64,000 nt of DNA from Bolinopsis microptera (lineage: Eukaryota > Ctenophora > Tentaculata > Lobata > Bolinopsidae): assembly GCF_026151205.1 (NCBI RefSeq), contig NC_087081.1, forward strand, positions 4,459,246-4,523,245. The letters run 5' to 3'. The notes below the pieces were generated by a model. It was not told the DNA's origin. It made no database searches and saw only the letters and a program-made list of their open reading frames with translations. A program made the position numbers and the translations under genes. Every line of letters starts with the position of its first letter. Position 1 is the first letter of the stretch. Below, in pieces: positions 4,633 through 48,424 of this stretch.

Positions 4633-7600
4633 ATACCTGCTTAGTTAGCGATGTGGAGTATTACAAAGGAGAGACCTTCGGTTCAACATGCAACAGGTAA
4701 CACACAGAACTTAGCAATGCTAATGCTAATAGCTGTATGCGCTAAGTTAGCGTATAGAGCTATAAGTATTTTATTGGTAGTACGCTTAGATAAAGCATCA
4801 AGTATGATCAGTCAGCTGATAAATTGTCGAATTAAAATAGAGTCACGACTTGTCTTCCACCTTTCAACATTAACGTAACTAAGTGATAGCAGAGAACGCA
4901 CATCTAATAAAGCAAATTTAGAAATAACAATTAACCTCGTTTTTCACCTCATTTAACTCGTATTTAACTTCTTATTTTCCTAGATGCACGTGCTACTTAT
5001 ACAGTACAGTATATGTGGACTGTGTGAGGACCCCTGATTGTAAACACATGACCACACCAGCTCCTCTCCCTCCAACCACACCCCCTCCAGTCAGACTCAG
5101 GGTTAAATCTAGTGAGTACCCCCAACCACACCCCCTCCAGTCAGACTCAGGGTTAAATCTAGTGAGTACCCCCAACCACACCCCCTCCAGTCAGACTCAG
5201 GGTTAAATCTAGTGAGTACCCCCAACCACACCCACTCCAGTCAGACTCAGGGTTAAATCTAGTGAGTACCCCCAACCACACCCCCTCCAGTCAGACTCAG
5301 GGTTAAATCTAGTGAGTACCCCCAACCACACCCCCTCCAGTCAGACTCAGGGTTAAATCTAGTGAGTACCCCCCACCACACCCCCTCCAGTCAGACTCAG
5401 GGTTAAATCTAGTGAGTACCCCCAACCACACCCCCTCCAGTCAGACTCAGGGTTAAATCTAGTGAGTTATATCCCCAACCATACCCCCTCCAGTCAGACT
5501 CAGGGTTAAATCTAGTGAGTACCCCCAACCACACCCCCTCCAGTCAGACTCAGGGTTAAATCTAGTGAGTACCCCCAACCACACCCCCTCCAGTCAGACT
5601 CAGGGTTAAATCTAGTGAGTACCCCCAACCACACCCCCTCCAGTCAGACTCAGGGTTAAATCTAGTGAGTACCCCCAACCACACCCCCTCCAGTCAGACT
5701 CAGGGTTAAATCTAGCGAGTACCCCCAACCACACCCCCTCCAGTCAGACTCAGGGTTAAATCTAGTGAGTACCTCCAACCACACCCCTCCAGTCAGACTC
5801 AGGGTTAAATCTAGTGAGTACCCCCAACCACACCCCCTCCAGTCAGACTCAGGGTTAAATCTAGTGAGTACCCCCAACCACACCCCCTCCAGTCAGACTC
5901 AGGGTTAAATCTAGTGAGTACCTCCAACCACACCCCCTCCAGTCAGACTCTGGGTTAAATCTAGTGAGTACCCCCAACCACACCCCCTCCAGTCAGACTC
6001 TGGGTTAAATCTAGTGAATACCCCCAACCACACCCCCTCCAGTCAGACTCAGGGTTAAATCTAGTGAGTACCTCCAACCACACCCCCTCCAGTCAGACTC
6101 AGGGTTAAATCTAGTGAATACCCCCAACCACACCCCCTCCAGTCAGACTCAGGGTTAAATCTAGTGAATACCCCCAACTAAACCCCCACCAGTCAGACTC
6201 AGGGTTAAATCTAGTGAGTTATACCCCCAACCACACCCCCTCCAGTCAGACTCAGGGTTAAATCTAGTGAGTACCCCCAACCACACCCCCTCCAGTCAGA
6301 CTCAGGGTTAAATCTAGTGAGTACCCCCAACCACACCCCCTCCAGTCAGACTCAGGGTTAAATCTAGCGAGTACCCCCAACCACACCCCCTCCAGTCAGA
6401 CTCAGGGTTAAATCTAGTGAGTACCTCCAACCACACCCCTCCAGTCAGACTCAGGGTTAAATCTAGTGAGTACCCCCAACCACACCCCCTCCAGTCAGAC
6501 TCAGGGTTAAATCTAGTGAGTACCCCCAACCACACCCCCTCCAGTCAGACTCAGGGTTAAATCTAGTGAGTACCCCCAACCACACCCCCTCCAGTCAGAC
6601 CCAGGGTTAAATCTAGTGAGTACCCCCCAACCACACCCCCTCCAGTCAGACTCAGGGTTAAATCTAGTGAGTACCCCCAACCACACCCCCTCCAGTCAGA
6701 CTCAGGGTTAAATCTAGTGAGTACCCCCAACCACACCCCCTCCAGTCAGACTCAGGGTTAAATCTAGTGAGTACCCCCAACCACACCCCCTCCAGTCAGA
6801 CCCAGGGTTAAATCTAGTGAGTACCCCCCAACCACACCCCCTCCAGTCAGACTCAGGGTTAAATCTAGTGAGTACCTCCAACCACACCCCTCCAGTCAGA
6901 CTCAGGGTTAAATCTAGTGAGTACCCCCAACCACACCCCCTCCAGTCAGACTCAGGGTTAAATCTAGTGAGTACCCCCAACCACACCCCCTCCAGTCAGA
7001 CTCAGGGTTAAATCTAGTGAGTACCCCCAACCACACCCCCTCCAGTCAGACCCAGGGTTAAATCTAGTGAGTACCCCCCAACCACACCCCCTCCAGTCAG
7101 ACTCAGGGTTAAATCTAGTGAGTACCCCCAACCACACCCCCTCCAGTCAGACTCAGGGTTAAATCTAGCTAGTATACGCTCAGAGTATTTCAAAGAATGC
7201 TCCAGTACTAGAACATACCACTGGTATAATTATTGCACATATACCATTACATTTACATTCCTTACAAGTTTTAGTAGCAATTATACTTCAGAGTGTCACG
7301 GAGGAGTAAGGTTCCTGGATTGTTCAACTCCTTGTGAGAGGGAATGTGGGTCTCGTGACTCAGACTGCAGACGTCACTGTTCCCAGGTTGGCTTGAATAA
7401 CCGATCAGGGGAAGGGATGCTTAAGTAGTAGTAGTAAAATGAATTAAATTAAGTAACGGTGAATAAATCAAAGGAGGCATGAAGAATATGGCGAAAGATT
7501 TCATTGTAACCAGCCAGTTACAGCAGTCGAAAGTACAATTTGAATTATAACTACAGCAGGGTGTCATTATTAACTGTTCTCAGTTTAAATGTGGGTTATG

Positions 7601-7985
7601 GAGAATAGAGGGAACGGGAAATATTCTATTTAAGTTTATAAGATTATATATCAAATTTTAGCTTTTCGCGACCCAAATTTCACCGTTTTGACTGAATTTT
7701 TCTTGAATGACAATCTAGCAAGGTCACTGGGGATAACACAAGACACGATTGTGGTTTTGAAAGTTCTATTCCCAAATAAAGCTTTGATAAACGGAAAATC
7801 ATCAAAAAATAAAAAGAGGTTTTTCAGATTTTTGTAAGATTTAAAAAAGAGTATAGCAATAAAGTAATAGCAATTATATATCCCCACAGGAGTGTTCCTG
7901 TCCCCCAGAAAGACCAGTGTTTTATGGAGGATGTTGTGTAGCTGAAGCGGTCTGTATTGAGGACGGCTGGGACTCCTGGTTTTAG
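4633..7985 (+). CDS. VWC/TIL-type cysteine-rich protein, 3' exons (partial)
   Basis: Four exons can be joined with matching phases: 4633-4696, 5005-5111, 7292-7386 and 7890-7985 (stop TAG). The first two exons together resemble a von Willebrand factor C module: C, then YYKGETFGSTC, then YVDCVRTPDC. A Thr/Pro linker (TTPAPLPPTTPPP) follows. The last two exons resemble a TIL/mucin-type cysteine module: FLDCSTPCEREC, then CSCPPERPVFYGGCC, then a short tail. This composition is known from mucins, SCO-spondin-like and BMP-modulator proteins, so it is probably secreted. The donor of the second exon (CTA|GTGAGT) is the first copy of the large 50-bp array. The donor after 7386 (GTTGGC) is weak. Exons upstream of 4633, and possibly left of the window, are not resolved. 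Confidence 0.68.
5078..7170. repeat. 50-bp minisatellite spanning an exon end and splice donor, about 40 copies
   Basis: About 40 copies of a 48-50 bp unit containing CCAACCACACCCCCTCCAG, GACTCAGGGTTAAATCTA and GTGAGTACC. The first copy is the 3' end of the exon ending at 5111 with its donor GTGAGT. Later copies keep both the exon-derived part and the donor. A block containing the variant GCGAGT recurs at about 5716 and 6367, with a spacing near 652 bp, so part of the array was itself duplicated. Minus-frame ORFs of 62-90 residues are repeat artefacts. Confidence 0.95.
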
Positions 7986-9179
7986 ACAAATTATACCCTT
8001 ATACAGAGTTTAATTACTTACCATTCGGAGAATCGATCTCTCAAATCAGAACAGTGCCGATACCAAACTCTCACTACCTAAGACTCGAAGACAATTTTAC
8101 TACGACACATAATTTGCTGGTGGATTCAACATTTTTAGAAGCCGAATTCTTCTTGCTCCTTAGCTATGTAACATGTCAATCAGACTCAGAGACGAAAGTA
8201 AATTTTGCTTGCTGGACATTATTACTTTCAAAATGTGTTCTTGGGTTTAATTCATGGGTTTGTCTCAATGTTTATTTCATTTTTACGTATTATAGATACA
8301 TCTTTATTTGAATTCGAATTACTATTAAAATAAAAAAATAAAAAAACAAAAGTTTTGGTATTATTCCAACTCGTCAGAAAATAAAGTAAATATTTCTATA
8401 TTATCATTATTATATTATATTATACATGTACACACATTGAAATACAGATTCATTTTGAATCTAGCCAATTCGCATGATCATTTTAATAGTTTTGTCATCT
8501 GACTCTGAATTCTGAATTTGCTGAGTAAAAAAATACATTTTGCTAATTTTGTCACTTTATATTTAATCATCATTCGAAGAGTTGAAATGGTGTGTCCTAT
8601 AGTTTTTGGCAACGTTCCATCTGATTATACTTGAACTTCTGTTACCAAGGTTACTACGTGTTCTCTTATCTTTCTCTCCGCAAACTAATTACACTGTTTG
8701 CTGAACCCTTCATATTGAAATACCACTGTTTTCTCATAATCAACCAAGTAAAATACTTCCTTTCAGCCTGAAGATCGTCTCTTCTGGTTTCCATAGTTAC
8801 ACTACTTGTTACCATAGTTACACTACTAGTTACCATAGTTACACTACTAGTTACCATAGTAACACTACTAGTGAGTTAGTGAGTTTACTTCTGGTTACCA
8901 GATGAGTTAGTGGCAAGGTTCTCTCCCACAGATTTGGGATGTCGGCTGCTACTGTTGTTGTTACTGTTGTCAGATTCAGTGGTTGTCATGGTGACTTTGC
9001 AACCCAGTGTGCTGGTTATTGGCTGGATTATTGAAGACCTGGAGTAGTTGAATGTTTATTATTTATTTATTGTTTGTTAAGATAAACATCCATTATATTA
9101 TACTCCTTACCGCTTTCTTACTTTATTGATATTAAATCGGAGGAAGGAAATCAATATCTTGTCTTTATAAATTGCAAAC
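7986..9179. other. Convergent 3' spacer between VWC/TIL gene and class A GPCR
   Basis: AT-rich sequence with no convincing exon. At about 8795-8870 there are about three copies of the 21-bp GTTACCATAGTTACACTAC-type unit that dominates the neighbouring GPCR introns. ORFs at 8054-8311 and 8666-8857 show no domain pattern and were not called. Confidence 0.55.
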
Positions 9180-12100
9180 TCACCAAACTTTAGACTTGAT
9201 GATAAGGATTAACTTGAGGTAAGCTCTTCTGAAGAAAGGGTTCACGATGCCGTAAAGTACCGGATTCACGGCACTCCCACTGAGCAGTAACCAGTGGAAC
9301 GCTATAACAAATTCTGCAGGGTTTTAACATTTAACATACTAGTATTACATTTGTTAACATACTATTATACATGACGTGTTAACATACTGTTGTCACGTGA
9401 TCCACACATTACCATATAAGGCATGGTTGTCACGTGATCCACACGTTACCATGGTAACCGTTTACTGACCTGGTCCAATGGTAATGAGAGAGCCGTCAAT
9501 AAAGTGCAGAAACCCAACTACTGTTATTGGAACTAGGCAGGACATCATGACACCTGCAGAATGATTGCTTTATAAATATTAATATATTTATACTTTTATA
9601 TAATATTAATATATTATATATTATGTTAGAGCAACTTCACATACATTTCTTGACTAGAAGAGTGTGTAACTAGTAGTGTAACCATGGTAACTAGTAGCTG
9701 TAACCATGGTAACTAGTAGTGTGTCCCACTGCTGGACACATTGGAAATTATTACAGTGTGATTCACAGTTATCATAGAGTTATAGTATTGATGAATAACG
9801 GACTAACCAATAATTACTAAAACAGTAACAGTATTGCTCTTGTTCTGCCGTTTTTTCATTAACATAGAATCAGATGCTGGTCTAGACAAATCCCCTGCGG
9901 CACGTGTAGTTGAGCGCATAAAACTTGCACGTGCAGTCTTCTCGTTTGCACGTGCACAGTTTTTCTGGACCAGGTTAGAGGTGGAGTTGGGAGATGTTCT
10001 GGGTATTTCCAGGTCAACACGGACTTTGTTGCAGTCACTAACCGTGTTTCTGCGGTGACTAGAGGATTCTAGTGCTTTTACTAAAGCCTGAAAATAGAGG
10101 ATTCTAGTGTTTTTACTAAAGCCTGAAAATAGAGGATTCTAGTGCTTTTACTAAAGCCTGAAAATAGAGGATTCTAGTGCTTTTACTATAAAAGCCTGAA
10201 AGTAGAAGAAATGGTGATTTACAGAAAGTGTAGTGGTTGTGGTTGTTTATAGTATCACGACGTCTTGCATAATGACGATAAAACGTAATTTTTATTGAAA
10301 AGCAGTAATTTAATCACGCTTAAAAATATGAACCATGGATTTAAACTTTTAGATTTTCCTCTTCTCAATAACACTTACTTCATCTTTCTTAGAAATAGAC
10401 TTGGCGATTGTGAAGATCTTGACATAGCAAATGGTTATCATGAGTAACGGAATTGGCACAAATATCACCGAATACGTCAAACAATACACCTGAAAAACTG
10501 TGTCATTTTTTAACTGTGTCATTTTAAATCAAAATCTCCTAATTTTACAAACGCTAATTAATATTTTAAGTCGGTATTTTTTTAAAGTTCACAAAAAGTT
10601 TTTTTGATGTGACTGAATCGGTAATTCAGTATGTTTTTAAAAGTTCTATTCGTCACACTTTGGTCTGTCCAAAAAAAATGATGAAATGTCCTAAAATACT
10701 TACTAAGATACCCGAAGATACACAAAAACGTAAAATACCTGAAAATACACTAAAATACCTGAAAATACCTGAAAATACTCACTAAAATACACTAAAACAC
10801 CTAAATATACTCACTAAAATACACTAAAATACCTGAAAATACACTAAAATATCTGAAAATACACTAAAATACCTAAAAATACCTGAAAATACTCACTAAA
10901 ATACACTAAAATATCTGAAAATACACTAAAATACCTGTCCGTAAAGTTCCTGAGGGCAGATGAGTCCACAACTGTAGGACCAGGTCGAATAGTTGAATTC
11001 TAGTCCCTGGTAGCTGAAGAGAGGTGGAGAGTTGCACAGCCCTGCTACCACCCAGATACCAACTGAAATATAGTACTTATGTACATCAACGAGAGTAACT
11101 AGTAGTGTAACTATGGTTAACTAGTAGTGTAACTATGGTAACTAGTAGTGTAACTATGGTAACTAGTAGTGTAACTATGGTAACTAGTAGTGTAACTATG
11201 GTAACTAGTAGTGTAACTATGGTAACTAGTAGTGTAACTATGGTAACTAGTAGTGTTACTATGGTAACTAGTAGTGTAACTATGTTAACTAGTAGTGTAA
11301 CTATGGTAACTAGTAGTGTAACTATGGTAACTAGTAGTGTAACTATGGTGACTAGTAGTGTAACTGTGGTAACTAGTAGTGTAACTATGGTAACTAGTAG
11401 TGTTACTATGGTAACTAGTAGTGTAACTATGGTAACTAGTAGTGTAACTATGGTAACTAGTAGTGTAACTATGGTAACTAGTAGTGTAACTATGGTAACT
11501 AGTAGTGTAACTATCAGGGGTGTAGGAAGCGGGGGGGCAGGGGGCCGAGGCCGTCGCCCCCATGAAATCTGGGCAAGGGGCCAAAAAGGGCCAACTTTTA
11601 AATTTAGGTTTCTAAAAATTTTACCGAAAATTTTTTGAGTCACAAATTTTTTAAAGTCGCAAATTTTCAAAGTCAAAAATTTTCAAAAGTAGTTTCAAGT
11701 TTTCTTGGAAACTACTTTTGTTCATATTTCATGCTACCCTGATCATTATGAGCCGAAAATATTATTTTCGGTTTTTGAAGTTCGATGTACGATTTTGGAC
11801 TACCTTACTCGGGAATATTATAACCGGGATAAAGTGGTGGGTTTTGGAAGATTCCACCATATTTTTCCCGGTCAAAAATTTTACCAGTCATAAAAAACCC
11901 GCCGACTCAGATTATGGGGTTCCAAGGGGGTGGTGATCATCATATTTTACCTGAAGTCTCATATGTGCTAGAGAAAACTTTTGAAGCAGTGGATGGAGGG
12001 CTGTAACTTTATTGGCGGTTGCTACCATAATTTCGTTATAAAAATCACAATTTGGTTATAGAAATCAGATTTCAGGGTGGACCGTGATTCTCACTTCTCT

Positions 12101-15100
12101 TGCCCATGAATCAGTGAATCGTAGAGAAGAAAACAATTTATATGTTATAGAAGAAAAAGAAAATAATAATAATATATAATATATATTATAATAATAATGT
12201 CTCTAAAGATTGATCGCTTCTCGTGTGCAGTGTGTAGACTAAAGAAAGAGGGAGTTTTTCCCGTTAAAGTAACTTGTGGCCACATCCCGCTAGAAGTGAG
12301 TAAACTGTGCCACTATTTCATGGTCCACGGTGGATTGATTACTGGAGCAGTTGAAGATGCAAAGCCAAGACGTTCCCCAATACCAAGCGGTGGGCAGGAA
12401 ATTAAGCTCCGGCTGACCTTCAGAGCAGTAGCCCCATTAGTGGACAAAATGAAAGTCTTGTTAAGACAACAATACAACTTCGAATTTGACGGTCAGCAGC
12501 TCAGGGGGATATCAATAATAATAATGGCGGGGACATTAGCGATAATGAGAATGAGAATACGCTTTAATGAAGATTTGACTTATTATTGCTTAGATTTATT
12601 TTCCTTTAAATAAGTAACAAAAACAGTAATTTCGGTTGAAAATTTGTTGACCTCTGAAAAAAAACTTGAAAGGTCGGCCACCGGTAAATACATGACCGGG
12701 ATAATTTGGCGGGTTTTGGGAAAGTCCGCCATATTTTTCCCGGTCATTAATTTTCCCAGTCATAAATTAACCCGCTATAATATTCCCGAGTAAGGTAGAC
12801 GGTTCCCCTTTTATTTATTATTTGTAATGCGATCTCGGAAGGCAGGCCTTCCCTTCGCAATACGAGCTCGGAAGCGGAAGCTCTGCTTTCAGAGGAACGT
12901 ATCGAGAATTTTCTAAGTCAAAATTTTTCAAAGTTTTTCTGGAAACTACTTTTGTTTATGTTTTATGCTACCCTGATCATTCTGAGCCGAAAATATTTGT
13001 TCGGTTTTCTGAATTCCGTACCTACATTCGGAAGGTTGTGGATGTGATTGGTTTCATATACTAATTATAGAAAACATGATATTTGGCCCACAGATTTAAA
13101 GGAAAATGCGCAATTTGATGCGGAGAACTGAAAAAAATCGCGATTTGTCGTGAGGCAAGGATTTGAAAAATCGCGATTTGTCGTGGCAAACGTGAAAAAT
13201 CGCGATACCTAAATTTCCTTTTGTCCTTACCCCGACAATTTTTCGAAATTTAGGCTTTGGCGCGAAGCAAATCATTCCTACACCCCTGGTAACTATGGTA
13301 ACTAGTAGTGTAACTGACCTATAAGTTTAGTGACTCTAGCCCAGGTAATGTTGCGGTGGTAATGTAGCGGGTACTGGACCATGTAGAACTTGTCTAAAGA
13401 GGAACAAGCCACTGTCCATACGCTGATCAGTAACATTGTGTTGTCCACAAACGCTGAAAAAGAGTCAGAGTTATATAATATGGTAACTAGTAGTGTAACT
13501 ATGGTAACTAATAGTGTAACTATGGTAACTAGTAGTGTAACTATGGTAACTATGGTAACTATACAGCTGATCAGTTATTGCATCTAGTTCAAGTTGTTTT
13601 TATTTATATACTTAATAATTTAATTGGTCAGCTTCATCCTAGTCTGGTTTAATCCAAGGACCAGTGTGTAAAGTCTTAATACAGACTGATTGTCTCTCAT
13701 AGTGTAACTATGGTAACTAGTAGTGTAACTATGGTAACTAGTAGTGTAACTATGGTAACTAATAGTGTAACTATGGTAACTAGTAGTTTAACTATGGTAA
13801 CTAGTAGTGTAACTATCGTAACTAGTAGTGTAACTATCGTAACTAGTAGTGTAACTATGGTAACTAGTAGTGTAACTATGGTAACTAGTAGTGTAACTAT
13901 GGTAACTAGTAGTGTAACTATGGTAACTAGTAGTGTAACTATCGTAACTAGTAGTGTAACTATCGTAACTAGTAGTGTAACTATCGTAACTAGTAGTGTA
14001 ACTATCGTAACTAGTAGTGTAACTATCGTAACTAGTAGTGTAACTATGGTAACTAGTAGTGTAACTATGGTAACTAGTAGTGTAACTATGGTAACTAGTA
14101 GTGTAACTATGGTAACTAGTAGTGTAACTATGGTAACTAGTAGTGTAACTATGGTAACTAGTAGTGTAACTATGGTAACTAGTAGTGTAACTATGGTAAC
14201 TAGTAGTGTAACTATGGTAACTAGTAGTGTAACTATGGTAACTAGTAGTGTAACTATGGTAACTATAGTAGTTTAACTATGGTAACTAGTAGTGTAACTA
14301 TGGTAACTAGTAGTGTAACTATCGTAACTAGTAGTGTAACTATCGTAACTAGTAGTGTAACTATCGTAACTAGTAGTGTAACTATGGTAACTAGTAGTGT
14401 AACTATGGTAACTAGTAGTGTAACTATGGTAACTAGTAGTGTAACTATGGTAACTAGTAGTGTAACTATGGTAACTAGTAGTGTAACTATGGTAACTAGT
14501 AGTGTAACTATGGTAACTAGTAGTGTAACTATCGTAACTAGTAGTGTAACTATCGTAACTAGTAGTGTAACTATGGTAACTAGTAGTGTAACTATGGTAA
14601 CTAGTAGTGTAACTATGGTAACTAGTAGTGTAACTATGGTAACTAGTAGTGTAACTATGGTAACTAGTAGTGTAACTATGGTAACTAGTAGTGTAACTAT
14701 GGTAACTAGTAGTGTAACTATGGTAACTAGTAGTGTAACTATGGTAACTATAGTAGTGTAACTATGGTAACTAGTAGTGTAAAGGTGTAACTATGGTAAC
14801 TAGTAGTGTTACCTGAGAAGTTGCAGAGGGTTTTACCCAGCAACCACTTGTTAGCCGCCACAGATATTACAGTTATAGGCATGTTCCACACTCCTACCAC
14901 AAAGTCTGACACGCTTAGGTTCATTAGGAAAGCGTTGCTTATACCTAGTGCCTGCGGGGGAGTCTGTTTTAGTTCCAATGGTATTGATAAAAGCCTTGTG
15001 ACGTCATCATCACAACTCGATGATGTCATCATTATTACTTGATGACGTCATCATCACAACTTCAATGGCATTCATAAAAGCCATGGCTATAAAACCTGTG

Positions 15101-15374
15101 ACGTCATCATCACAACTTGATGGCGCCATCATCACAACTTGGTTCCGCGTAGGTTGACATGATTAAAGTTTATATGTGCCCATCCTATTCATTCCTAAAC
15201 ATGCTGTTATTAATTATCTACACAGCTGATTCTTAATTGTCTTACCCGTTTGTCATAGAGAAGAGCAAACCAAAAAAGAGCATTACCCAATACAGCCACC
15301 ACCGCGAACACAGACATACTGGATCCAAGAGCCATCCTCGCTGCTACCCCCGACAAGCCTGTAGTGTTTGTCAT
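9180..15374 (-). CDS. Rhodopsin-class (class A) GPCR, eight exons, 379 aa
   Basis: Exons in transcript order: 15374-15246, 14951-14813, 13453-13319, 11062-10935, 10489-10379, 10087-9808, 9553-9470, 9313-9180. They sum to 1140 bp and join in frame at every junction. TM1 carries the conserved LGN. Exon 2 gives TM2 with NLSVSDF and the TM3-facing Cys. Exon 3 has TM3 ending SSLDKFYMVQYPLHY, so DKF stands in place of DRY. Exon 4 is TM4 plus the loop-2 Cys. Exon 5 is TM5 with its Pro. Exon 6 is a long third intracellular loop. TM6 has CLVP instead of CWLP. TM7 has NPVLYG in the NPxxY position. This is a plasma-membrane receptor; the ligand is unknown. The ATG at 15374 is the first in frame and leaves a short N-terminus with an NTT glycosylation site. 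The altered DRY and CWxP motifs make a subfamily call unsafe. Confidence 0.9.
10088..10205 (-). repeat. 35-bp repeat of the GPCR exon 6 splice acceptor, four copies
   Basis: On the minus strand the unit reads ATTTTCAG then GCTTTAGTAAAAGC and AGAATCCTCT. It therefore contains the acceptor and the first bases of GPCR exon 6. The copy bordering the exon has its acceptor at 10088/10087; upstream copies lie 35 bp apart and the outermost is slightly diverged. Use of an upstream acceptor would add 35 nt per copy and shift the frame unless three copies were added. Confidence 0.85.
10690..10934 (-). repeat. Short-unit array starting at the GPCR exon 4 donor
   Basis: On the minus strand the intron begins GTATTTTAGTGTATTTTCAG directly at the donor (GGACAG|GTATTT) and continues as a variable array of GTATTTTAGT and GTATTTTCAG words for about 240 bp. 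The words look like both donors and acceptors. Confidence 0.85.
11090..11514. repeat. 21-bp array (GTAACTATGGTAACTAGTAGT), left block in GPCR intron 3
   Basis: About 20 copies of a 21-bp unit containing GTAACTATGGTAAC, close to the palindromic RFX X-box GTTACCATGGTAAC. It is continuous with the block right of 13288 apart from the transposon inserted at 11515. Since 21 is a multiple of three, several frames stay open, giving false ORFs of 99-196 residues. Confidence 0.95.
11801..12797. mobile_element. Nested TIR element inside the hAT-like transposon
   Basis: Ends are TACCTTACTCGGGAATATTA at the left and its inverted match ending CCGAGTAAGGTA at the right. Further in, both arms carry degenerate inverted copies around CCATATTTTTCCCGGTC. 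Flanking GAC on both sides could be a 3-bp target duplication. The related uninterrupted sequence near 56320 and 56570 (GATTTTGGACTCGAGGGCTC) supports an insertion here. It carries the 138-residue ORF at 12197-12613. Superfamily not assigned. Confidence 0.7.
12197..12613 (+). CDS. Small ORF carried by the nested TIR element (138 aa), unknown
   Basis: The ORF runs ATG to TAA inside the nested element. Near the N-terminus it has CAVCRLKKEG and KVTCGH, a possible CxxC/CxH metal-binding arrangement, then HYFMVHGGLITG and RRSPIPSGGQEIKLRLTF. I do not recognise it as a transposase. The C-terminal third is low-complexity and may be decayed. It could be a small element-encoded protein or the remains of a longer one. 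Confidence 0.45.
   Translation: MSLKIDRFSCAVCRLKKEGVFPVKVTCGHIPLEVSKLCHYFMVHGGLITGAVEDAKPRRSPIPSGGQEIKLRLTFRAVAPLVDKMKVLLRQQYNFEFDGQQLRGISIIIMAGTLAIMRMRIRFNEDLTYYCLDLFSFK
13289..14812. repeat. 21-bp X-box-like arrays filling GPCR intron 2 and the start of intron 3
   Basis: Blocks at 13289-13317, about 13482-13560 and about 13697-14812, interrupted by exon 3 (13319-13453). The intron 2 block begins right at the exon 2 donor (CTCAG|GTAACACTACTAG on the minus strand), and the intron 3 block right at the exon 3 donor (ATAG|GTCAGTTACACTAC). Units vary between GTAACTATGG and GTAACTATCG in runs, which indicates local amplification. ORFs of 160 and 188 residues are artefacts. Confidence 0.95.
14998..15130. 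repeat. CRE-like TGACGTCATCATCACAAC repeats in GPCR intron 1
   Basis: Four copies of a TGACGTCATCATCACAACT-like word, two perfect TGACGTCA palindromes with variants GATGTCATC and GGCGCCATC, partly joined by longer duplicated sequence (AAAAGCC...CTGTGACGTC). Confidence 0.8.
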
Positions 15375-29249: not shown

Positions 29250-31610
29250 TCAGAACTGATTATATAAATGATTCTTTAACATTCGCTTGAAACAGTTGGT
29301 ATCAGTATCAGTAATACTTCTCAACATCAGCGGAAGAGAGTTCCATGCAACCGGTGCATGGCTTGAAAAACGTCTGTCATCAACTTTGGATCTTTTATTC
29401 TTTGGTATCTTGAGCATGAGATGGTCATCCGGTCTTTTCGACCTGGTCATGGTGTTTGAAAGCTCTATATCCACTACATCCATATCCAGTAGTGCTTTGA
29501 GGTAATCAGGTGCAGTACCGTGAACTGATTTGTGGGTTAAAAGACAAACTTTGAAGAAGATTCGTTGGTCTATAGGGAGTATGTGGGCCTTCTTATAGAA
29601 GGGAACCAAGTCCGTGGTCCTCTCTTCTATGTTGTAGATGAAACGAACTGCCCCATTAAGGGTTGATCTAAGTTTGTTCAATCTGGTCTTGGGTAGATTC
29701 ATGTTAAGAGAATTACAGTAGTCTAATTTAGATATGACCAGTTGTTTCACCAGCATCAATTTAATGCCTTCATCCAGGTAACGACCAATGGTTCTTAGGT
29801 TCATCATTGTCCAGCTGCATTTCCTTTTGACATTATTGATCTGTCTTTCCATATTTAGAGTTTCATCAAATTTGACACCCAGAATCTTCCAGCTGTCTCC
29901 TTTACACTCCGTAGGCAGAATTTCAGTGCTTCCAAATTGCAGTCTGACACTGAGTTCACACTTTTTTAGAACATGGCTCTTTCCTAACACCAGTAGTTCT
30001 GTCTTTGTTTCGTTCAGTTTCATGTAGTTGTTCACCATCCATGCTTTTATCTCTGCAAGACATTTGTTTGTTCTGTCTTGGACATCAATGAACTGTACCA
30101 CACGGTTTGGTTTAAATGAGATGTACAGTTGAGAATCATCTGCATAGAGCTGTATATCAAGACCATATTTGGCCGCATTTTTCTGGAGAGCTTTGATATA
30201 AAGGATGAAAAGAATAGGCCCCAAGAGTGATCCCTGGGGAACTCCAAACAGAAGCTCCAAGAAAGATGAAAGAGTATCATCAATCTTAACACAGAAGTGT
30301 CTTTTCTCAAGGTAGGACTTTATCCATTGCAGTGCACTTCCAGTAATTCCATAGTCCTTCATAAGCTTTTCCAACAAGACTGTGTGGTCAATGGTATCAA
30401 ATGCTGCACTTAAGTCGAGAAGTACAACTATAACAACATTCCCAGCTTCAATTTCTTTGTTTAGATCATCACACATTCTAACAAGTAATGTTTCACAGCT
30501 ATGATTAGGGCGATATCCAGATTGGACTTCTGAGTAAAGGCTATGGTTAGTTAGATGGACATTAAGCTGGTTTAGTACAATTCTCTCTAGGATCTTAGAG
30601 AAGGCAGAGAGGTTAGACACTGGTCGATAGTTACTGAGAATATCAACATCAGCATTTTCCTTCTTCAAAGTCGGCTTGATGACTGCTTTCTTCATATCTG
30701 AGGGAAAAACTCCAGTCTTCAAGGATGAGTTCAAGACGTGGAGTATAAAAGGTGTTAGTTCATCAACACAGTTTTTTAAGAGAAATGCTGGGATCGGATC
30801 CAAGCAGCAGAACTTGTTGGACATCTTTGATACCAGGTCTTTGAGTTCATCAGCTGTTATCTCAGAGAAATTATCAAAGATGCAGTCTTTATCAAGAACA
30901 GGATCTTTGTCTTTGTCTTTGTCTTTGTCTTTGTCTTTGTCTTTGTCTTTGTCTTTGTCTTTGTCTTTGTCTTTGTCTTTGTCTTTGTCTTTGTCTTTGT
31001 CTTTGTCTTTGTCTTTGTCTTTGTCTTTGTCTTTGTCTTTGTCTTTGTCTTTGTCTTTGTTTACATCTTTGTCTTTGTCTTTGTCTTTGTTTATATCTTT
31101 GTCTTTGTCTTTGTCTTTGTCTTTGTCTTTGTCTTTGTCTTTGTCTTTGTCTTTGTCTTTGTCTTTGTCTTTGTCTTTGTCTTTGTCTTTGTCTTTGTCT
31201 TTGTCTTTGTCTTTGTCTTTGTCTTTGTCTTTGTCTTTGTCTTTGTCTTTTCCTTCCTTCTCAATGGCTTGTCTGATGGTTGCAACCTTTTCAGCGAAGA
31301 AATCTTTGAAATCTTCTGACAGTTTCACAGGATCCTTGTAGTTTGGAAGGTTTTGGGTGTCATTTCCTAAAAGCCTGTTGACTTTTTTGTACAACGCTTT
31401 AGTATCCCCTGAAGAGGACCTAAGAGAGGTTTTGTGGTGAGCGCATCTTTTGACAAACTCTAGTCGGGAAAACTCATCTCTTAGCTTAACATAATCCGAT
31501 CTCAGGTACTCAGATCTTGTACTGTCTATATAGTCTACTTTATCTTTTCTCCACGCACGTTCAGCAGTTCTTCTCTTTCGCCTGAGAATACGAATCGACG
31601 TTTCAGCCAT
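29250..31610 (-). CDS. LINE reverse transcriptase ORF (786 aa) with a Lys-Asp repeat
   Basis: A continuous 786-codon ORF. The RT domain occupies about residues 250-530: NYRPVSNLSAFSKILE, the catalytic DLSAAFDTIDH (motif A), GVPQGSLLGPILF (motif B), and YADDSQLY (motif C, YADD). A conserved C-terminal region (about 600-786) ends in FKRMLKNHLY. Residues 1-120 match the linker between endonuclease and RT; the endonuclease itself is missing. An in-frame (KD)n stretch of about 115 residues separates linker and RT. The RT motifs look intact, so the copy may be recent, but without endonuclease it is unlikely to be autonomous. The first ATG is used; the native start would lie in the missing 5' part. 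Confidence 0.9.
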   Translation of the reverse strand: MAETSIRILRRKRRTAERAWRKDKVDYIDSTRSEYLRSDYVKLRDEFSRLEFVKRCAHHKTSLRSSSGDTKALYKKVNRLLGNDTQNLPNYKDPVKLSEDFKDFFAEKVATIRQAIEKEGKDKDKDKDKDKDKDKDKDKDKDKDKDKDKDKDKDKDKDKDKDKDKDKDKDKDINKDKDKDKDVNKDKDKDKDKDKDKDKDKDKDKDKDKDKDKDKDKDKDKDKDKDKDKDKDKDKDPVLDKDCIFDNFSEITADELKDLVSKMSNKFCCLDPIPAFLLKNCVDELTPFILHVLNSSLKTGVFPSDMKKAVIKPTLKKENADVDILSNYRPVSNLSAFSKILERIVLNQLNVHLTNHSLYSEVQSGYRPNHSCETLLVRMCDDLNKEIEAGNVVIVVLLDLSAAFDTIDHTVLLEKLMKDYGITGSALQWIKSYLEKRHFCVKIDDTLSSFLELLFGVPQGSLLGPILFILYIKALQKNAAKYGLDIQLYADDSQLYISFKPNRVVQFIDVQDRTNKCLAEIKAWMVNNYMKLNETKTELLVLGKSHVLKKCELSVRLQFGSTEILPTECKGDSWKILGVKFDETLNMERQINNVKRKCSWTMMNLRTIGRYLDEGIKLMLVKQLVISKLDYCNSLNMNLPKTRLNKLRSTLNGAVRFIYNIEERTTDLVPFYKKAHILPIDQRIFFKVCLLTHKSVHGTAPDYLKALLDMDVVDIELSNTMTRSKRPDDHLMLKIPKNKRSKVDDRRFSSHAPVAWNSLPLMLRSITDTDTNCFKRMLKNHLYNQF
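30903..31250. repeat. Hexanucleotide (TTTGTC)n inside the LINE ORF
   Basis: About 58 copies of the 6-mer (GACAAA on the coding strand) with two nearby variants (TTTACATC, TTTATATC). The period is a multiple of three, so the RT frame survives the expansion. Confidence 0.97.
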
Positions 31611-31620
31611 AATGTTGGGC

Positions 31621-32865
31621 GGACTGACGTTTCCGAGTGGTTAATGTTTCATCTCTCATACTATAAGGCATCATCTGGCTACATTTTGATGGGTCGATGT
31701 GGTATTCAGATCCATCTTCGAGATCGTTTTTTTCATTTGTAGCAAGATAAAGTCCTTGCTATATTTTCCATACGATACTGTTTAATTCGTGACTTTGAAC
31801 GAAGTTCCAGGAAATGAACAATTATATATAGCCATAATCCATATTATGACAAGACGACATTTATCCTGGAATTTGACCACATAATTGTCCAGAACAGAAG
31901 TTTGCAGCTACAGTATATAAAAGTATAAAGAATTGTTGACGCTCAATGTTCATTAGCTGTTAGCCGCTCTTTTTAAGTAACATAGTTTCTACACAGGCCA
32001 GCCAGCTATATTAATATAGAAACTTGTACTCCGAACAGAAACTACATTACTCCTGATAGGTGGTGTGTCGAGGAACTCGACTTATGGATAATACCACATG
32101 CTCAGTTGATCGGTACCGGCACGAGCGTGCAGTCACGTGACACTCCGCGTTTTGTCACGTGACGCGCGCACTAAGTCACGTGGTACATTCTCCATGTGTG
32201 ATTGGAAACGCGTGCTGCACGTGGGTTTCAGACAGGTTTTTATTGGATATTGGTAGGGATAGAGACGTTATGTGATTAGAGGGAGCGTGCAGGGAGTACA
32301 ATATCCGTAACCTGGCCCACACTTCCTGGATCGGGTCCCGCCGAGTGAACCAGGGATCCCGCCGAGTGAACCTCCATAGTGTCATACCCAACCTGGGAAC
32401 AACTTGATTACTTGCGAAAGACGTAGAGTGCATTTTTAGAGTTCCGATGTTAATTTTACTATTGGAAATAACTAAATCCGTTGGGATCAACCAATTTTCT
32501 TATAATTATTACCAAGGACCGTGTAACTGGCCATCAGTACTACTTACTTACTACTTGTTTGTTAGTGTACCAATTTTGTTACCGATAAAAATCAATTCAA
32601 TTATCATCGGACCACTGATAATCGGTTCTTCGGTCAAAGTTCAAGTTCCTAGTGTCTCGAGCAAAAATACCGTTATGTCTTTACCGTAAAGTGTAAAACC
32701 AAGTAATTTTACCTCTTCCCCTCCCTGAATACAGGATGTTTCATGAATAGTGTCCGGTTTTTGATTTATTGTCAAATTTAGTACAAATGAAATAACTTTT
32801 CAAATTTTGGTTATAAATGTAACAAATATATCAGAAAATCATAAAACATAATAATATGTGACTCA
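31621..32865. other. Intergenic region with CACGTG cluster
   Basis: No exon recognised. TCACGTGAC/GTCACGTG words occur at about 32134, 32155, 32176 and 32219. A 19-bp direct repeat (CCCGCCGAGTGAACC) lies at about 32337-32372. Confidence 0.5.
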
Positions 32866-35755: not shown

Positions 35756-35996
35756 GTCACGTGATGTGACAGTGGCCAATACTTTAGGAGTGCCTGATCC
35801 GAGCATGCCCTGTTGCTTAGCGAACCCAGCCTCCTGAAACTTTACTCGCAGCCCACCCACCAATAAGAGAACGTCTGCAGGTCACGTGACTGGAACCCGA
35901 CCAATCAGCTGGCTGGAGCCACACCACGTGATCAGAGCGTTTGAAGTTTGCGAGTGTTTCCTGTTAGGTCACGTGCGCGCGCCGGGGTCACGTGAC
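35756..35996 (+). promoter_or_regulatory. CACGTG cluster upstream of the Bsx-like gene
   Basis: Five CACGTG cores within about 240 bp (about 35758, 35883, 35925, 35970 and 35989), several extended to GTCACGTGAC, with a CCAAT word at about 35900. The cluster ends about 100 bp before the start codon at 36094, so it probably lies in the promoter. CACGTG is the binding site of many bHLH and bZIP factors. The same word is frequent elsewhere in the window, so function is inferred. Confidence 0.5.
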
Positions 35997-36093
35997 ACGG
36001 CACGTTTAAGGATCGCACGGACACGACCTGCGCCACCAGAACCTCAAGCACCGAATTTGTTGCGAACTGTATTTGTTTTGATTATCTGACAAC

Positions 36094-41031
<4,938 letters not shown>

Positions 41032-41785
41032 ACAGTGTCAGATGATGACGTCACACTGATGACGTCACGTTACTGTGATGACGTCACCTGTTTCTTTGTT
41101 TAAAGATGGCGCGTTGTAATGATGACGTCACGTGTTCTTTGTTTAAAGATGGCGCGTTGTAATGATGACGTCACGTTTTGATTTTGTGAAGGCAGCGCGT
41201 TACTGTGGGACTACCTCATAAGAAGTATTTAGATTGTAGCCACTGTTCAAAATGACTGCATCAGCTCGGTTACAGTTGTTAGGTTACAGTTGCTAGGTTA
41301 CAGTTGCTAGGTACAGAATTGATTATATTTGGTGATAATGAATTAACTGCACTTTAAACTGCTGTTTTCAGAAATATTCAAATATTCTCGCTTTTCAACC
41401 GAAAAACCAAATATATATGTGAGTATGTGGATAACTAACTGCATTTAAAATTGTACCCTATTATATTCTCGAACTTTCTTTGAAGTTTGGTTCCTTTTAT
41501 TTGATTCTTGTAGCCTTTATATAGAGACTGTGAGTGATCTACGATTTTTTATTTTATTTGTTGTTTGTACATAGTATAACTTATTTTTAGCCAATTTATC
41601 TCATAAATAGCCGTTTTATTTTTATAAAATTCGCAGCAAATCAAGGTTTCAAATCTTATTAAAGACATTTTATTGAAACTTACGGGATTTTGAAATACTG
41701 ATAGTTTGATGATATCCGGTAGAAATGACCACAATGCGGTCATTTATGCATGAATTATGTTCATATTTGAATATATCGGATCGTT
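41032..41785. other. Bsx 3' region with CRE repeats
   Basis: Five TGACGTCA palindromes between about 41044 and 41175, two in a 42-bp direct repeat with TTTGTTTAAAGATGGCGCG. Three GTTGCTAGGTTACA-like copies follow at about 41270-41312. The remainder is AT-rich. Confidence 0.75.
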
Positions 41786-43195: not shown

Positions 43196-44010
43196 TGTTC
43201 AGCATGTTTTAAAGCGCTGGACGTCTCATTAACTTCTGTCTGATGGTAGCTTGGTCTCTATAATGAATTAACCCTCATCACCCTGCCCCCTCTTACCCTC
43301 TTATTGGCTCATTAAATTGATTTTCAAAACATTGTGATTGCATTGGAGCAGACACGTGGGGGAGTCACGTGGTTAACAAGCTGTCACGTGACGACGCACG
43401 TGGGTGTGACACGTGCTCTTAGTCGAGTAATCATCGCCTCACGTGCGTGAGTAGCCATTTAATGGGTTCATTAATAAAAGCTTTGAAAACGTGTTGTTTG
43501 TATTAAAAATACGGTGGTGATACCACGTGCACAAGAGTGCAATCCATTAAAACGCACCCCATGTAACCAAGTCAGCACGTGCTAAAATATACGCTAGATT
43601 TTGCACGGTTTACTGCTCTTCATTGATCTAATATTTTTCAAGTTTTTAGTAAACTCCCCGCAGTTGCTAGGTTACAGTTGCTAGGTTACAGTTGCTAGGT
43701 TACAGTTGCTAGGTTACAGTTGCGAGTGTCACTACTGTTCGAGCTGTTTCTTCTAATTGTCTCTAATTAGTGGTTTCTGTAGGGTAGTTTTCCGAATTCT
43801 CAGATCGTTTACCTCTGATTAAATGATTCGCAACAATTTAGTATCCCCGAGAGATCATTAAAACCGGGCCGAAAACAATTTATTTCAAAATGAGGCCACG
43901 ATCAAAGATTGCTAGATTACAGTTGCTAGGTTACAGTTGCTAGATTAGGGGCCGTAGTTAACCTCGGGTGAGTTCAGATGACATAAAAACTTGACCTTGT
44001 TTATATAGTT
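43196..44010. other. Spacer between homeobox genes, CACGTG and X-box rich
   Basis: At least eight CACGTG words between about 43350 and 43585 (several as TCACGTGA). GTTGCTAGGTTACA blocks lie at about 43672-43720 (four copies) and 43907-43945 (three). No exon seen. It may be regulatory for either neighbouring homeobox gene. Confidence 0.6.
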
Positions 44011-44275
44011 TTTACAGTTTATATAGTGTTTACAGTTTATAAGTTTATATAGTGTTTACAGTTTATATAGTGTTTACAGTTTATATAGCGTTTACAGTTT
44101 ATATAGTGTTTACAATTTATATAGTGTTTATAGTTTATATAGTGTTTATAGTTTTTATAGTGTTTACAATTTATATAGTGTTTATAGTTTATATAGTGTT
44201 TATAGTTTTTATAGTGTTTATAGTTTATATAGTGTTTACAGTTTATATAGTGTTTACAGTTTATAAATATAAAGT
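44010..44275. repeat. TTTATATAGTGTTTACAG array
   Basis: About 17 copies of a 15-16 bp unit. The 15-bp period keeps frames open, producing a false 77-residue ORF. Confidence 0.93.
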
Positions 44276-44686
44276 TTGCAGATGAGACTAGACGGTTCGG
44301 TTCCTATCTATTAGTAGTAGTTTATTTGGGACTGGTCTGAGGTTTCTACTCAGACGGAGCATGGTAGTCATGGTTACGCATGGGTTTGCTAACCAACAAT
44401 AACCTCCTGAACATGATATAGAAACATATTATTAATAATCCTGCATATTACTGTCACTTATTTCTCATACTGTTAGATACGCATGTTGTCATGCTAACGC
44501 ATGTTGTCATGGTAACGCATGTTGTCATGGTAACGCATGCGCTTTCCTTCAATTTCCCTGTCATTTAACTGACAGTGTTATTGGTTGCTACATGTTGGGA
44601 GGTGGTTGCTATGGTAATTTAAGTGACAGCTCTATTGGCGGTTGCCTAGACAAACCATAGCAATAATTATCTCGATAAAGGAGCAA

Positions 44687-44792
44687 TGACGAGAGACACC
44701 TCGCTAGCTCGATGGCTGGAAATGTCTCTAAAAAATGCTGCCCTCATAAACGAGACAGACATTTCATTTGATCAGTCTTACCAAAGTTTTAG
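44687..44792 (+). CDS. Candidate 5' coding exon, unassigned
   Basis: Starts ATG and encodes MTRDTSLARWLEMSLKNAAL, then INETDISFDQSYQSFR, ending at TTTTAG|GTAATTTATC. The donor is followed by a second copy 21 bp later (CTCTGAG|GTAATCTACC), like other donor repeats here. It ends in phase 2, which does not join directly to the homeobox exon at 45866, so it may belong to another or alternative transcript. No domain recognised. Confidence 0.35.
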
Positions 44793-45359
44793 GTAATTTA
44801 TCATTACTCTGAGGTAATCTACCATTACTCTGTCTTTGTATTGGCTGGTGGATCTCACTTTGCTGGAATATTCAAGTTTGATTGGCCTCCCTTCAGTCTA
44901 CACTTTTTATTTTGTTATTTTTATTGGTTTTTATGAAGATCCTTGCTGCTAAAAATTACGTTTAATTTGTGGAAATTAAAATTTTTGTGCCGTAAAAACG
45001 TCCAGATTTGTAACATTAGCGAAACCAAGGCCCGTCGGTGATTACAGTTGAGAACAACAGTAAATCTTTAGGTTTGCAGAAGTTTAGTTTGCAGATCTAG
45101 TTTGTCTAGACATTACTTTCAAATTTTATTGCACTCTTATTAGAATTATTTTATTGGCGACCATGCCTAGTGTAGACTTAAAGGAGTTTATGTTATAGTG
45201 AGATGATCTTTTAACTTAACTGGTCTATGTCTTAGTGTTGATCATGGTTTGAATTTGTTTACTTGGAAGTTGCAACGTTACAATCTTATTTGACATTCGT
45301 TTTTCCTATCGTAGACTCTATCGCTAATTGATCAACTTGGTTGCTGACGTTCAGTTTCA
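44793..45359. other. Spacer, nothing further recognised
   Basis: AT-rich sequence after the candidate exon. It begins with the short GTAAT..ATTACTCTG duplication; otherwise unique-looking. Confidence 0.4.
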
Positions 45360-45369
45360 GGTTACCGAT

Positions 45370-45715
45370 CAATATTTCCTCGAGCATATGGAACCTGAAA
45401 TAGCTACTATTAGCATTATCCTCGAGCATATGGAACCTGAAATAGCTGCGATTAGCATTATCCTCGAGCATATGGAACCTGAAATAGCTACTATTAGCAT
45501 TATCCTCGAGCATTTGGAACCTGAAATAGCTGCTATTAGCATTATCCTCGAGCATATGGAACCTGAAATAGCTGCTATTAGCATTATCCTCGAGCATATG
45601 GAACCTGAAATAGCTGCTATTAGCATTATCCTCGAGCATATGGAACCTGAAATAGCTGCTATTAGCATTATCCTCGAGCATATGGAAGCTGAAATAGCTA
45701 CTATTAGCATTATCG
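45370..45715. repeat. 42-bp minisatellite upstream of the second homeobox gene
   Basis: Eight copies of CTCGAGCATATGGAACCTGA, then AATAGCTGCTATTAGCATTATC. The period is a multiple of three, so three overlapping ORFs on both strands of 123-163 residues stay open. With no codon-type substitution pattern they are probably artefacts. It ends about 150 bp before the start codon at 45866. Confidence 0.93.
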
Positions 45716-45865
45716 AGACAAATTCAATTATCATGAGCAACCAGATTTTGTCGAAGTCACTGATATGTTTTTTTGATTATTATGCTATAACTAAAGATAT
45801 ATTGCGCGACTTACATTAGAACTATAAAAGTATAAAGCAATATACTAACTATAATACTATAAGCA

Positions 45866-48424
45866 ATGATCGCTACAGCCCATCCATTCTCGATAACCAA
45901 TATTCTGGAGGGTGACTCTCTTTCTAGCAGCGTGGAGAAATTGTCTCCACTCAACGTAGATACATCTGTAAGAAAAGGTAATTATTCAAGTTATTTACAT
46001 AACTTTATATAATAGAAATATAACAAGACAAAGTAATTATTCAAGTTATTTACATAACTTTATATAATAGAAATATAACAAGAAAAGATAATTATTCAAG
46101 TTATTTACATAACTTTATATAATAGAAATATAACAAGACAAAATAATTATTCAAGTTATTTACATAACTTTATATAATAGAAATATACCAAGGAAAAGTA
46201 ATTATTCAAGTTATTTACATAACTTTATATAATAGAAATATAATAAGAAAAGGTAAATATTTAAATTATTACATAACTTTATATAATAGAAATATAATAA
46301 GAAAAGGTATTTATTCAAATTATTTACTTTTTCAGTTTCGTGATTCTAATCTCTGTTCATGTTTGGTGTTACGTTTTTATCATAATTCATGCCGTAACAC
46401 TCGCCTGCGAACAACTGAAATATTTCCGCTTAATCGATTAAACAATATTCATATCATGTTTATAAGTAATATTATCAATATTATTAATTATAGGTATATC
46501 ACTAACTGGACCTCTGTTGCCAATAGCTACTTACGCAGAGCCCTCTCTTAGCAACCGCCTCACCTCGCTTAGCAAAACTACAAGATCACTTAGCAACATG
46601 ATGGCATGTTCTAGCCAAACAACTTCGCCAAACAACAGAATTACGTCACCTAGCAACCTCGTGATGTCACCTAGCAGCCTCGTGACGTCACCTATTTACC
46701 ACATGACATCACCTAGCAACCTCGTGACGTCACCTAGCAACCTCGTGACGTCACCTATTTACCACATAACGTCACCAGAACAACAGACAGTTCACCCAAA
46801 TATGGTAGTTCAGGAGAGTGACACGTGGAGACAGAGTGATGCTATCAACTCTTTTACTGAGGTAACCATGACAATATATTTGAAGTAACCAGAGCAACAT
46901 ATCTCCTAAATTATATATCTTTTGGCGTTATTTGTTATCTTGCACAGGACACAGGTAGATATCTGTTTTAATGATTTATTTTCATCATCTCTGTTCTAAA
47001 CGTAATTGCAATTTCTGCAGGAGTTGATGAAGAATTTTGGTACAAGTTTGATGAAGTTGAGTGGATTATCAGATCCAGTGTCCTTGGTGACGGATCAAGG
47101 CGCACCTTTACCTTGGCCTATACTTATTGCTTCTAGTCTCAGCAAACATGGTAACAAAAGGAAAAATTACGAAATTTAGTTTATAATTTTAACATGGTGA
47201 AGTTTTAACTTTTTAAATTTGAATGCGTTTTAGTCGTGTCCTGCGATATCTTCTCATAGCAGGGTTGCAAGATGTGAAGGATAGAAATGGCCCAGAAGTA
47301 TATATATCTATATACTATGTACATGTACTATGTACATATACTATGTACATGTTATGTATATATCAAGACTCTATGAATATAACACAAGACTTGGTCACAA
47401 TGGTAACCATGGTAACATGGTAACACAGGACTTACCATAACATGTCACAATGGCAGGCATGATAAAAACAAGAAAGAGAAGAACGACTTTCTCGCGCGAA
47501 CAGCTGGTGAACATGGAGAGAACGTTCCAGAAGCACCCTTATCTAACTCCAACACAGCGAGCAGACCTGGCTAAGTCCCTCAACTTGGCTCAGATACAAG
47601 TCCAGGTAAGTACCTCAACTTGGCTCAGATACAAGTCCAGGTAAGTCCCTCAACTTGGCTCAGATACAAGTCCAGGTAAGTCCTTCAACTTGGCTCAGAT
47701 ACAAGTCAAGGTAAGTTCCTCAACTTGGCTCAGATACAAGTCCAGGTAAGTCCCTCAACTTGGCTCAGCTACAAGTCCAGGTAAGTCCCTCAACTTGGCT
47801 CAGATACAAGTCCAGGTAAGTCCCTCAACTTGGCTCAGATACAAGTCCAGGTAAGTCCCTCAACTTGGCTCAGCTACAAGTCCAGGTAAGTCCCTCAACT
47901 TGGCTCAGATACAAGTCCAGGTAAGTCCCTCAACTTGACTCAGATACAAGTCCAGGTAAGTCCCTCAACTTGGCTCAGATACAAGTTCAGGTAAGTCCCT
48001 CAACTTGGCTCAGATACAAGTTCAGGTAAGTCCCTCAACTTGGCTCAGCTACAAGTCCAGGTAAGTCCCTCACCTTGGCTCAGATACAAGTCCAGGTAAG
48101 TCCCTCAACTTGGCTCAGATACAAGTCCAGGTAAGTCCCTCAACTTGGCTCAGATACAAGTCCAGGTAAGTCCCTCAACTTGGCTCAGATACAAGTTCAG
48201 GTAAGTCCCTCAACTTGGCTCAGATACAAGTCCAGGTAAGTCCCTCAACTTGGCTCAGATACAAGTCCAGGTAAGTCCCTCAACTTGGCTCAGATCCAAG
48301 TCCAGGTAAGTCCCTCTATTTGGCCTATTTTTTATCACAGTCAATAAACAAATATAAATTATATTCTTACTCATAGGTTTGGTTCCAAAACAGAAGAGCT
48401 AAGTGCAAGAAAACTGGAGTTTGA
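45866..48424 (+). CDS. Homeobox transcription factor with EH1 motif, five exons, 268 aa
   Basis: Exons 45866-45977, 46494-46861, 47021-47150, 47457-47605 and 48377-48424 (TGA). They sum to 807 bp with all phases matching. An EH1-like motif HPFSITNILEGD lies at residues 7-18. Exon 2 is Ser/Thr/Pro-rich with SPSNLVT repeats. Exon 3 ends PWPILIASSLSKH. The homeodomain is RKRRTTFSREQLVNMERTFQ, then KHPYLTPTQRADLAKSLNLA, then QIQVQ and VWFQNRRAKCKK, with an intron between positions 46 and 47. The 46/47 intron and QVQVWFQNRRAK suggest the PRD-like class with Gln50, while HPYLTPTQR is more ANTP-like, so the class is open. It is a nuclear DNA-binding regulator, probably a repressor through EH1. The protein ends nine residues after the homeodomain core. 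Confidence 0.82.
45972..46322 (+). repeat. 55-bp array starting at the exon 1 donor of the second homeobox gene
   Basis: Seven units of AGAAAAG, then GTAATTATTCAAGTTATTTA and CATAACTTTATATAATAG. The first unit is the exon 1 end with its donor at 45978. Donor positions recur at 46033, 46088, 46143, 46198, 46253 and 46307; the GT is kept at 46033, 46198, 46253 and 46307 and lost (AT) at 46088 and 46143. Confidence 0.93.
47579..48310 (+). repeat. 35-bp array of 21 splice donors at the homeobox exon 4 end
   Basis: Unit CTCAACTTGGCTCAGATACA, then AGTCCAG|GTAAGTCC: the last 27 or so bases of the exon, encoding LNLAQIQVQ of the homeodomain, plus the donor. The first donor is at 47606 and the last at 48306, exactly 20 periods of 35 bp later. 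All donors read GTAAGT. Only the first keeps the homeodomain frame; reading into the second unit meets TAA. Confidence 0.97.

Follow-up and report, generated by a model that had tools for sequence, protein, structure and literature searches.

Minisatellites that begin at 5′ splice sites recur in unrelated genes of the ctenophore Bolinopsis microptera

Why should tandem repeat arrays begin just where an exon ends? The question is raised by 64,000 nucleotides of the ctenophore Bolinopsis microptera (assembly GCF_026151205.1, contig NC_087081.1, positions 4,459,246 to 4,523,245 of the forward strand; hereafter the window, in whose own coordinates positions are given), part of a 264.65-Mb genome. 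A preliminary description of the window listed nine arrays, in four genes that we call A to D, that start at or contain a splice junction. Seven of them (5111, 14812, 10934, 40731, 45977, 47605 and 10088) are upheld here, the one at 13318 is upheld in part, and the one at 40089–40329 is withdrawn. Here we show the geometry of these arrays, their recurrence in unrelated genes, an asymmetry between 5′ splice sites (donors) and 3′ splice sites (acceptors), and that donors in later repeat copies are not conserved beyond the rest of the unit. Array starts are above chance at donors and not at acceptors. Tandem arrays were called with Tandem Repeats Finder (TRF) at a score of at least 50 in the window and at least 30 in the blind set described below, and window gene models were built from reading frame, splice phase and Pfam domain matches. 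In all tests, splice junctions came from homology, frame or phase models and not from RNA-seq, although transcript data of this kind (RNA-seq or Iso-Seq) have served in annotating Bolinopsis (PMC10232365). The arrays are minisatellites by definition, that is, head-to-tail copies of a 10–100-bp unit as called by TRF, and the window is rich in repeats, with 70 merged arrays of period at least 7 occupying 16,178 of the 64,000 bases (~25%).

The geometry is plainest in genes A and D, both on the plus strand. Gene A encodes a cysteine-rich protein that gave no Pfam match at E ≤ 0.1, and three exons join with matching phases: 4633–4696, which is cysteine-rich and VWC-like by eye; 4984–5111, which fits both neighbours in frame and phase and ends at a donor GT at 5112; and 7292–7386, whose acceptor (CTTCAG|AG) is of compatible phase. 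The 50-bp array (5072–7168, 41.8 copies) begins inside the second of these exons, and its first unit takes in the last 40 exon bases and the donor, GTGAGT. Gene D is a homeobox gene (homeodomain, E = 1.4e-22). Its exon 2 (47457–47605; frame, phase and domain match) ends at a donor at 47606, and the first unit of the 35-bp array found there (47572–48324, 21.5 copies) comprises the last 34 exon bases and the donor, GTAAGT. This junction lies within the homeodomain, and the reading across the intron into exon 3 (48377–48424; frame and phase) is QVQ|VWFQNRR. Gene D exon 1 (45866–45977; frame and phase) has a phase 1 donor at 45978, from which a 55-bp array (45970–46327) extends; phase and the motif FSITNILE, presumably EH1-like, are the evidence for this junction. 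A further array, of eight 42-bp copies open in frame (LEHMEPEIAAISII), lies upstream of exon 1 at 45377–45714.

Gene C, also on the plus strand, is a second homeobox gene (homeodomain, E = 2e-24). Because introns 47606–48376 and 40464–40569 interrupt the homeodomains, those junctions are independently supported. The homeobox exon of gene C (40570–40731; frame and domain match) has its donor at 40732, and a 14-bp array (40724–40828) runs from this donor to 20 bp before the acceptor, filling 97 of the 117 bp of intron 40732–40848. Past the array ends there are another 123 bp in gene A and 52 bp in gene D before the acceptor, which suggests that these two introns predate their arrays.

Gene B, on the minus strand, encodes a rhodopsin-type G protein-coupled receptor (7tm_1, E = 3.1e-33) whose six exons join without a stop. 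A weak 23-bp repeat (2.1 copies) begins 3 bp past the donor of exon 1 (15246–15374). At the donor of exon 2 (14813–14951, donor at 14812; frame, phase and domain match), copies of a 21-bp unit start at the donor by eye; TRF reports the array only from +30 (13700–14782), and an interrupted copy carries it to the donor, so that the whole spans 13700–14812. The donor of exon 3 (13319–13453) at 13318 is a real junction with only about 1.4 copies (13289–13317) of the same 21-bp family. These copies look like the tail of a 20-copy array at 11095–11514, 32 bp ahead of the exon 4 acceptor, severed by an insertion at 11515–13288 whose 14-bp inverted ends (CAGGGGTGTAGGAA ... TTCCTACACCCCTG) were read from the sequence; since the insertion splits the 21-bp array, the array is older than the insertion. 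Similar translated stretches (FLETTFVHVSCYPDHYEPKI) were seen at 11655–11933 and 12799–13061, both inside the insertion, and at 55805–56728, where the stretch at 55835–56686 forms a 253-bp tandem array; this suggests a dispersed element. Exon 4 (10935–11062; frame, phase and domain match) has its donor at 10934, and a 10/20-bp CAGGTATTTT array (10731–10937) starts 3 bp within the exon. The donor of exon 5 (10379–10489; frame and phase) has no array.

Two acceptor cases had been listed. At 10088 the case stands: a 35-bp array (10060–10206) holds the exon 6 acceptor (TTTTCAG|GCTTTAG, exon start 10087) and overlaps the exon by 28 bp. At 40089–40329 in gene C, the acceptor was rejected because the 48-bp array (40076–40358) is a coding repeat of 16 codons, in frame and open through all copies, which needs no acceptor.

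Enrichment was measured by placing arrays at random within their own introns. In the window, which is the discovery set, 6 of 19 arrays in 11 modelled introns started within 10 bp of a donor or spanned it (1.16 expected, p = 0.0001), one of the six being the weak repeat at gene B exon 1, which the preliminary list did not contain. At window acceptors there were two contacts versus 1.17 expected (p = 0.32). The blind set consisted of 24 protein-kinase loci picked by catalytic-loop motifs alone, with arrays disregarded. Their introns were predicted by a spliced-alignment script with a kinase profile built first from 26 of the 30 loci L009–L038 of the same genome, whose domains are mostly uninterrupted, and then refined with the predicted proteins of the 24 test loci themselves. 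After L051 was dropped as a near-copy of L050, 63 of 66 introns in 23 loci were kept (median 298 bp). Among 57 arrays in these introns, 10 lay within 10 bp of a donor, whereas 1.71 were expected and none of 5,000 shuffles reached this count. The larger arrays sit in three loci (L043, L046 and L050), which makes the effective sample small; when the two array-richest loci were removed, 6 of 48 arrays remained at donors versus 1.25 expected (p = 0.0012). Blind-set acceptors showed no significant excess within 10 bp (3 versus 1.70, p = 0.24). Within 20 bp they had 7 versus 3.24 (p = 0.04), and without L043 and L046 they had 4 versus 2.36 (p = 0.21).

A separate duplication finder, applied to the blind set, placed seven starts in six loci at donor positions +0 to +10, versus 0.94 expected from intron interiors. 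The starts bunch at +2 to +8, and positions +11 to +30 had one versus 1.7 expected. Across seven finder settings p ranged from 3e-5 to 0.06, the stricter settings giving 3 versus 0.7–0.9, and shuffled sequence yielded only 0.03–0.15 such starts. How large the excess is varies with the null. It is 3–7 fold relative to uniform placement and about twofold relative to random cut points within introns, where 3.4 arrays are expected to start within 10 bp and 7 was reached in 5.3% of 300 draws. When arrays were scored by coverage (covering a site or starting within 10 bp), donors (9/63) resembled intronic GTs (194/1,732) and were not enriched; strong-scoring decoy GTs, at 51/94, exceeded real donors, with 46 of these in L043 alone. 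The preliminary description had suggested a process that amplifies DNA at exon-intron borders, to be checked by comparing array starts with random placement. Run on a small scale with homology-defined junctions, the comparison gave enrichment at donors and none of significance at acceptors, so that the borders in question should be narrowed to donors. With an excess over cut points of only about twofold, these data do not demonstrate a dedicated amplifying process.

The pattern recurs in unrelated genes. Searches of the genome gave matches on 13 large contigs and a few small ones, and from nine places with donor-word arrays we fetched five 5′ flanks, chosen before the flanks were seen and partly for differing units; L064–L066 came from triple-copy matches of the donor word AGGTAAGT (defined below), and L067 and L068 from single-occurrence matches of the same word. 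The L064 flank was array throughout. In three of the four readable flanks (L065, L067 and L068) an open frame ends at the first donor; the L066 flank lacks a coding end. L065 encodes a reprolysin/ADAM-type protease (Reprolysin_3, E = 1.4e-8, in the open stretch just upstream; Reprolysin, E = 6.1e-4, narrowly under cut-off, in the exon itself), the L067 exon has a Sushi-like repeat (E = 0.0026, under the Pfam cut-off), and the L068 exon belongs to a dynein heavy chain (E = 2.3e-11). Exonic bases make up 33 of the 44 in the L065 unit, 41 of 54 in L067 and 32 of 57 in L068, alongside 40 of 50 in gene A and 34 of 35 in gene D. The exon-spanning units in genes A and D, L043, L065, L067 and L068 are copies of their own exon. 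Immediately ahead of its donor array, the dynein exon (L068:280–606) also holds an in-frame tandem duplication of 171 bp (57 codons).

Do the donors in later copies matter? The dinucleotide GT is mostly kept in them (20/20 in the 35-bp array, 35/37 in the 50-bp array, 38/38 in L043, 14/14 in L064 and 2/4 in the 55-bp array), as would be expected if selection kept several donors to aid splicing or tune alternative splicing. However, the rest of the unit is kept equally: in five arrays, 15 of 678 letters of the donor hexamer had changed in later copies versus 87 of 4,646 elsewhere (p = 0.55), so that no extra conservation of the hexamer was detected. We therefore regard selection for multiple donors as very improbable, and the earlier suggestion that arrays are tolerated only when they regenerate splice signals finds no support, as later donors change just as fast. 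According to a frame table, splicing from the second-copy donor would run into a stop or lose the frame in 11 of the 12 donor arrays examined; in six of these the period is a multiple of three or a stop is met first, and in the remainder the frame shifts. Only the array at 14813 differs, as its 21 bp would add seven codons, all open. Multiples of three among donor-array periods are 21, 51, 54 and 57. With no extra conservation of their donors, later copies act like ordinary intron, as ballast after a first donor that still works.

We lean towards the explanation that donor-anchored minisatellites are ordinary tandem duplications whose extra copies are intronic and tolerated because the first donor still works. 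In a repeat-rich genome, short duplications of about 8–60 bp would appear in numerous places, probably through slippage or template switching where there are short matches. Selection would purge most of those within exons or over acceptors. A duplication that spans or adjoins a 5′ splice site should do almost no harm: the first donor, still attached to the exon, stays and is presumably used, and further copies, each with an exon piece and a donor of its own, would be intronic, spliced out and nearly neutral. Donor arrays would then be free to reach dozens of copies. A duplication over an acceptor would set a competing AG ahead of the true one, and this burden would explain the asymmetry between donors and acceptors. 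Some of our results count against this explanation. Pure tolerance predicts the same density of starts at donors as in the intron interior, and starts are instead heaped at +0 to +10. Only one blind-set array (L043, 51 bp) clearly spans a donor, and with the stricter finder there is none; the second counted spanning case, L054, is an exonic array that reaches 2 bp into the intron.

This heap of starts keeps in play a mutational bias at 5′ splice sites, by which transcribed donors start short tandem duplications more often. We favour tolerance over such a bias, which we hold possible but doubtful. Polymerase pausing, R-loops, bound U1 small nuclear ribonucleoprotein and the step in composition between exon and intron are candidate causes; here GC content steps from 47% in exons to 31% in introns. 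The bunching at +2 to +8 in six loci, the six of 19 window arrays and the near absence of such starts in shuffled sequence all speak for the bias, and are offset by an excess of only about twofold over random cut points and the small counts under stricter settings. Whole-genome word counts, taken as windows that hold a word three times at 14–44-bp spacing, are likewise double-edged. The donor words gave far more windows than their reversed forms (AGGTAAGT 1,212 versus 11; AGGTGAGT 1,016 versus 184), the non-splice word AGGATAGT gave 344 versus 276, and the acceptor-like TTTTCAGG gave 186 versus 84, one of its places being the gene B array itself. We discarded the ~110-fold excess of AGGTAAGT because the AGGATAGT counts show its reversed control to be unusually low; as single occurrences, AGGTAAGT and its reverse number 10,758 and 7,965. 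The local baseline is 0.3–6.8% of 8-mers in triple windows, and a few large arrays dominate the triple-copy counts. By distinct places per Mb among the matches listed, counted by hand (number in parentheses), AGGTAAGT had ~0.24 (7), AGGTGAGT 0.46 (12), AGGATAGT 0.12 (6) and TTTTCAGG roughly 0.09 (19), so that among these matches donor words exceed the control word about 2–4 fold and the acceptor word does not. A bolder form of the idea makes the transcribed 5′ splice sites of this lineage hot spots where short tandem duplications are born, with splicing or transcription coupled to replication errors; it is speculative and we think it rather unlikely, and we know of no name for such a coupling.

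Another source of the arrays might be mobile or dispersed minisatellite families that invade introns, or are introner-like, and are halted by selection at splice signals. Two units are indeed shared between places, the 21-bp GTTACCATAGTTACACTACTA and the 14-bp GTTGCTAGGTTACA, which corrects the earlier statement that units have only the splice site in common. The 21-bp family has 838 exact 35-mers genome-wide. It runs in two gene B introns, one of which holds the insertion, starting at the donor and stopping 25 and 32 bp short of the acceptor, and it is found upstream of the L067 and L068 exons as well; gene context was read in these three genes. The 14-bp unit has 28 matches with at most one mismatch within the window. 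However, these families cover only the arrays at 14812, 13318 and 40731, the exon-spanning units derive from their own exons, and no copy of the 21-bp unit was found in the kinase loci with up to three mismatches allowed. An origin of the donor arrays from dispersed families is accordingly improbable. With regard to location, the 21-bp family lies near one end of contig C1: among the matches listed, all C1 places but one are below 2.32 Mb, and those listed after C1 continue in the first kilobases of C2. Plain coincidence, although about a quarter of the window is array and coverage is alike for donors and intronic GTs, is scarcely credible, as the enrichment is one of starts rather than coverage and was obtained in two separate sets and with two repeat finders.

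The preliminary description knew of no named system of this kind, which was too strong, because related cases in human genes have been published. The minisatellite of human IFI6 (6-16) gives multiple splice donors (Turri et al. 1995, as cited in passages of PMC4526556). As there, a donor lies within the tandem unit, so that additional copies can supply donors too; frame, phase or homology places the 5′ splice site of the unit at an exon end in genes A and D and in L065, L067 and L068. Downstream IFI6 units are reported as donors in transcripts, whereas the present arrays are known from genomic sequence alone, recur in several unrelated genes and have units with long exon pieces. Passages of De Grassi and Ciccarelli (2009, PMC2812944) describe internal tandem repeats at exon-intron boundaries of human duplicated genes that form novel introns. 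Those repeats are similarly minisatellite-like and similarly placed, whereas the introns of genes A and D seem older than their arrays. Internal tandem repeats at exon-intron boundaries were reportedly also the subject of Zhuo et al. (2007), a work cited by De Grassi and Ciccarelli. Intron gain by tandem duplication (the AGGT model) likewise involves duplication over an exon-intron boundary, as in a potato RNA-dependent RNA polymerase gene, where the duplication crosses an intron-exon boundary (PMC4974935). Here no new intron is seen: in genes A, C and D each array ends short of the acceptor, and in none of the three do both splice sites come from copies of a duplicated segment. Introners, the subject of PMC9860276, are also repeated families linked to splice sites; our exon-spanning units differ in being local copies of their own exon end and not a mobile family. 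What looks new is that such arrays recur in unrelated genes within one genome, together with the donor-only pattern, and in literature surveyed by titles, abstract openings and selected passages we found no description of such arrays in a ctenophore.

Two other repeat features were noted. A long reverse-transcriptase-like open reading frame on the minus strand (29250–31640) contains a 58-copy hexamer array read as a KD dipeptide repeat. The palindrome-like sequence GTTRCYANRGYWAC, which we take to resemble the RFX X-box, occurred 113 times in 327,495 bp versus 0 in one block shuffle, with 23 occurrences outside arrays; it is carried by several array families and was seen in the window, L067, L068, L058–L060, L014, L030 and L043.

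Should donors attract duplications, the evolution of intron length and of alternative donors in this lineage would be biased, and exon ends could be sought with the help of arrays without RNA; were the hot-spot idea true, the splicing map would be inscribed in the repeat map of the genome. If arrays are merely tolerated, the asymmetry between donors and acceptors would be a natural measure of selection on the first of many identical donors. In either case, gene predictors and read mapping may be led astray by arrays made of copied exon ends.

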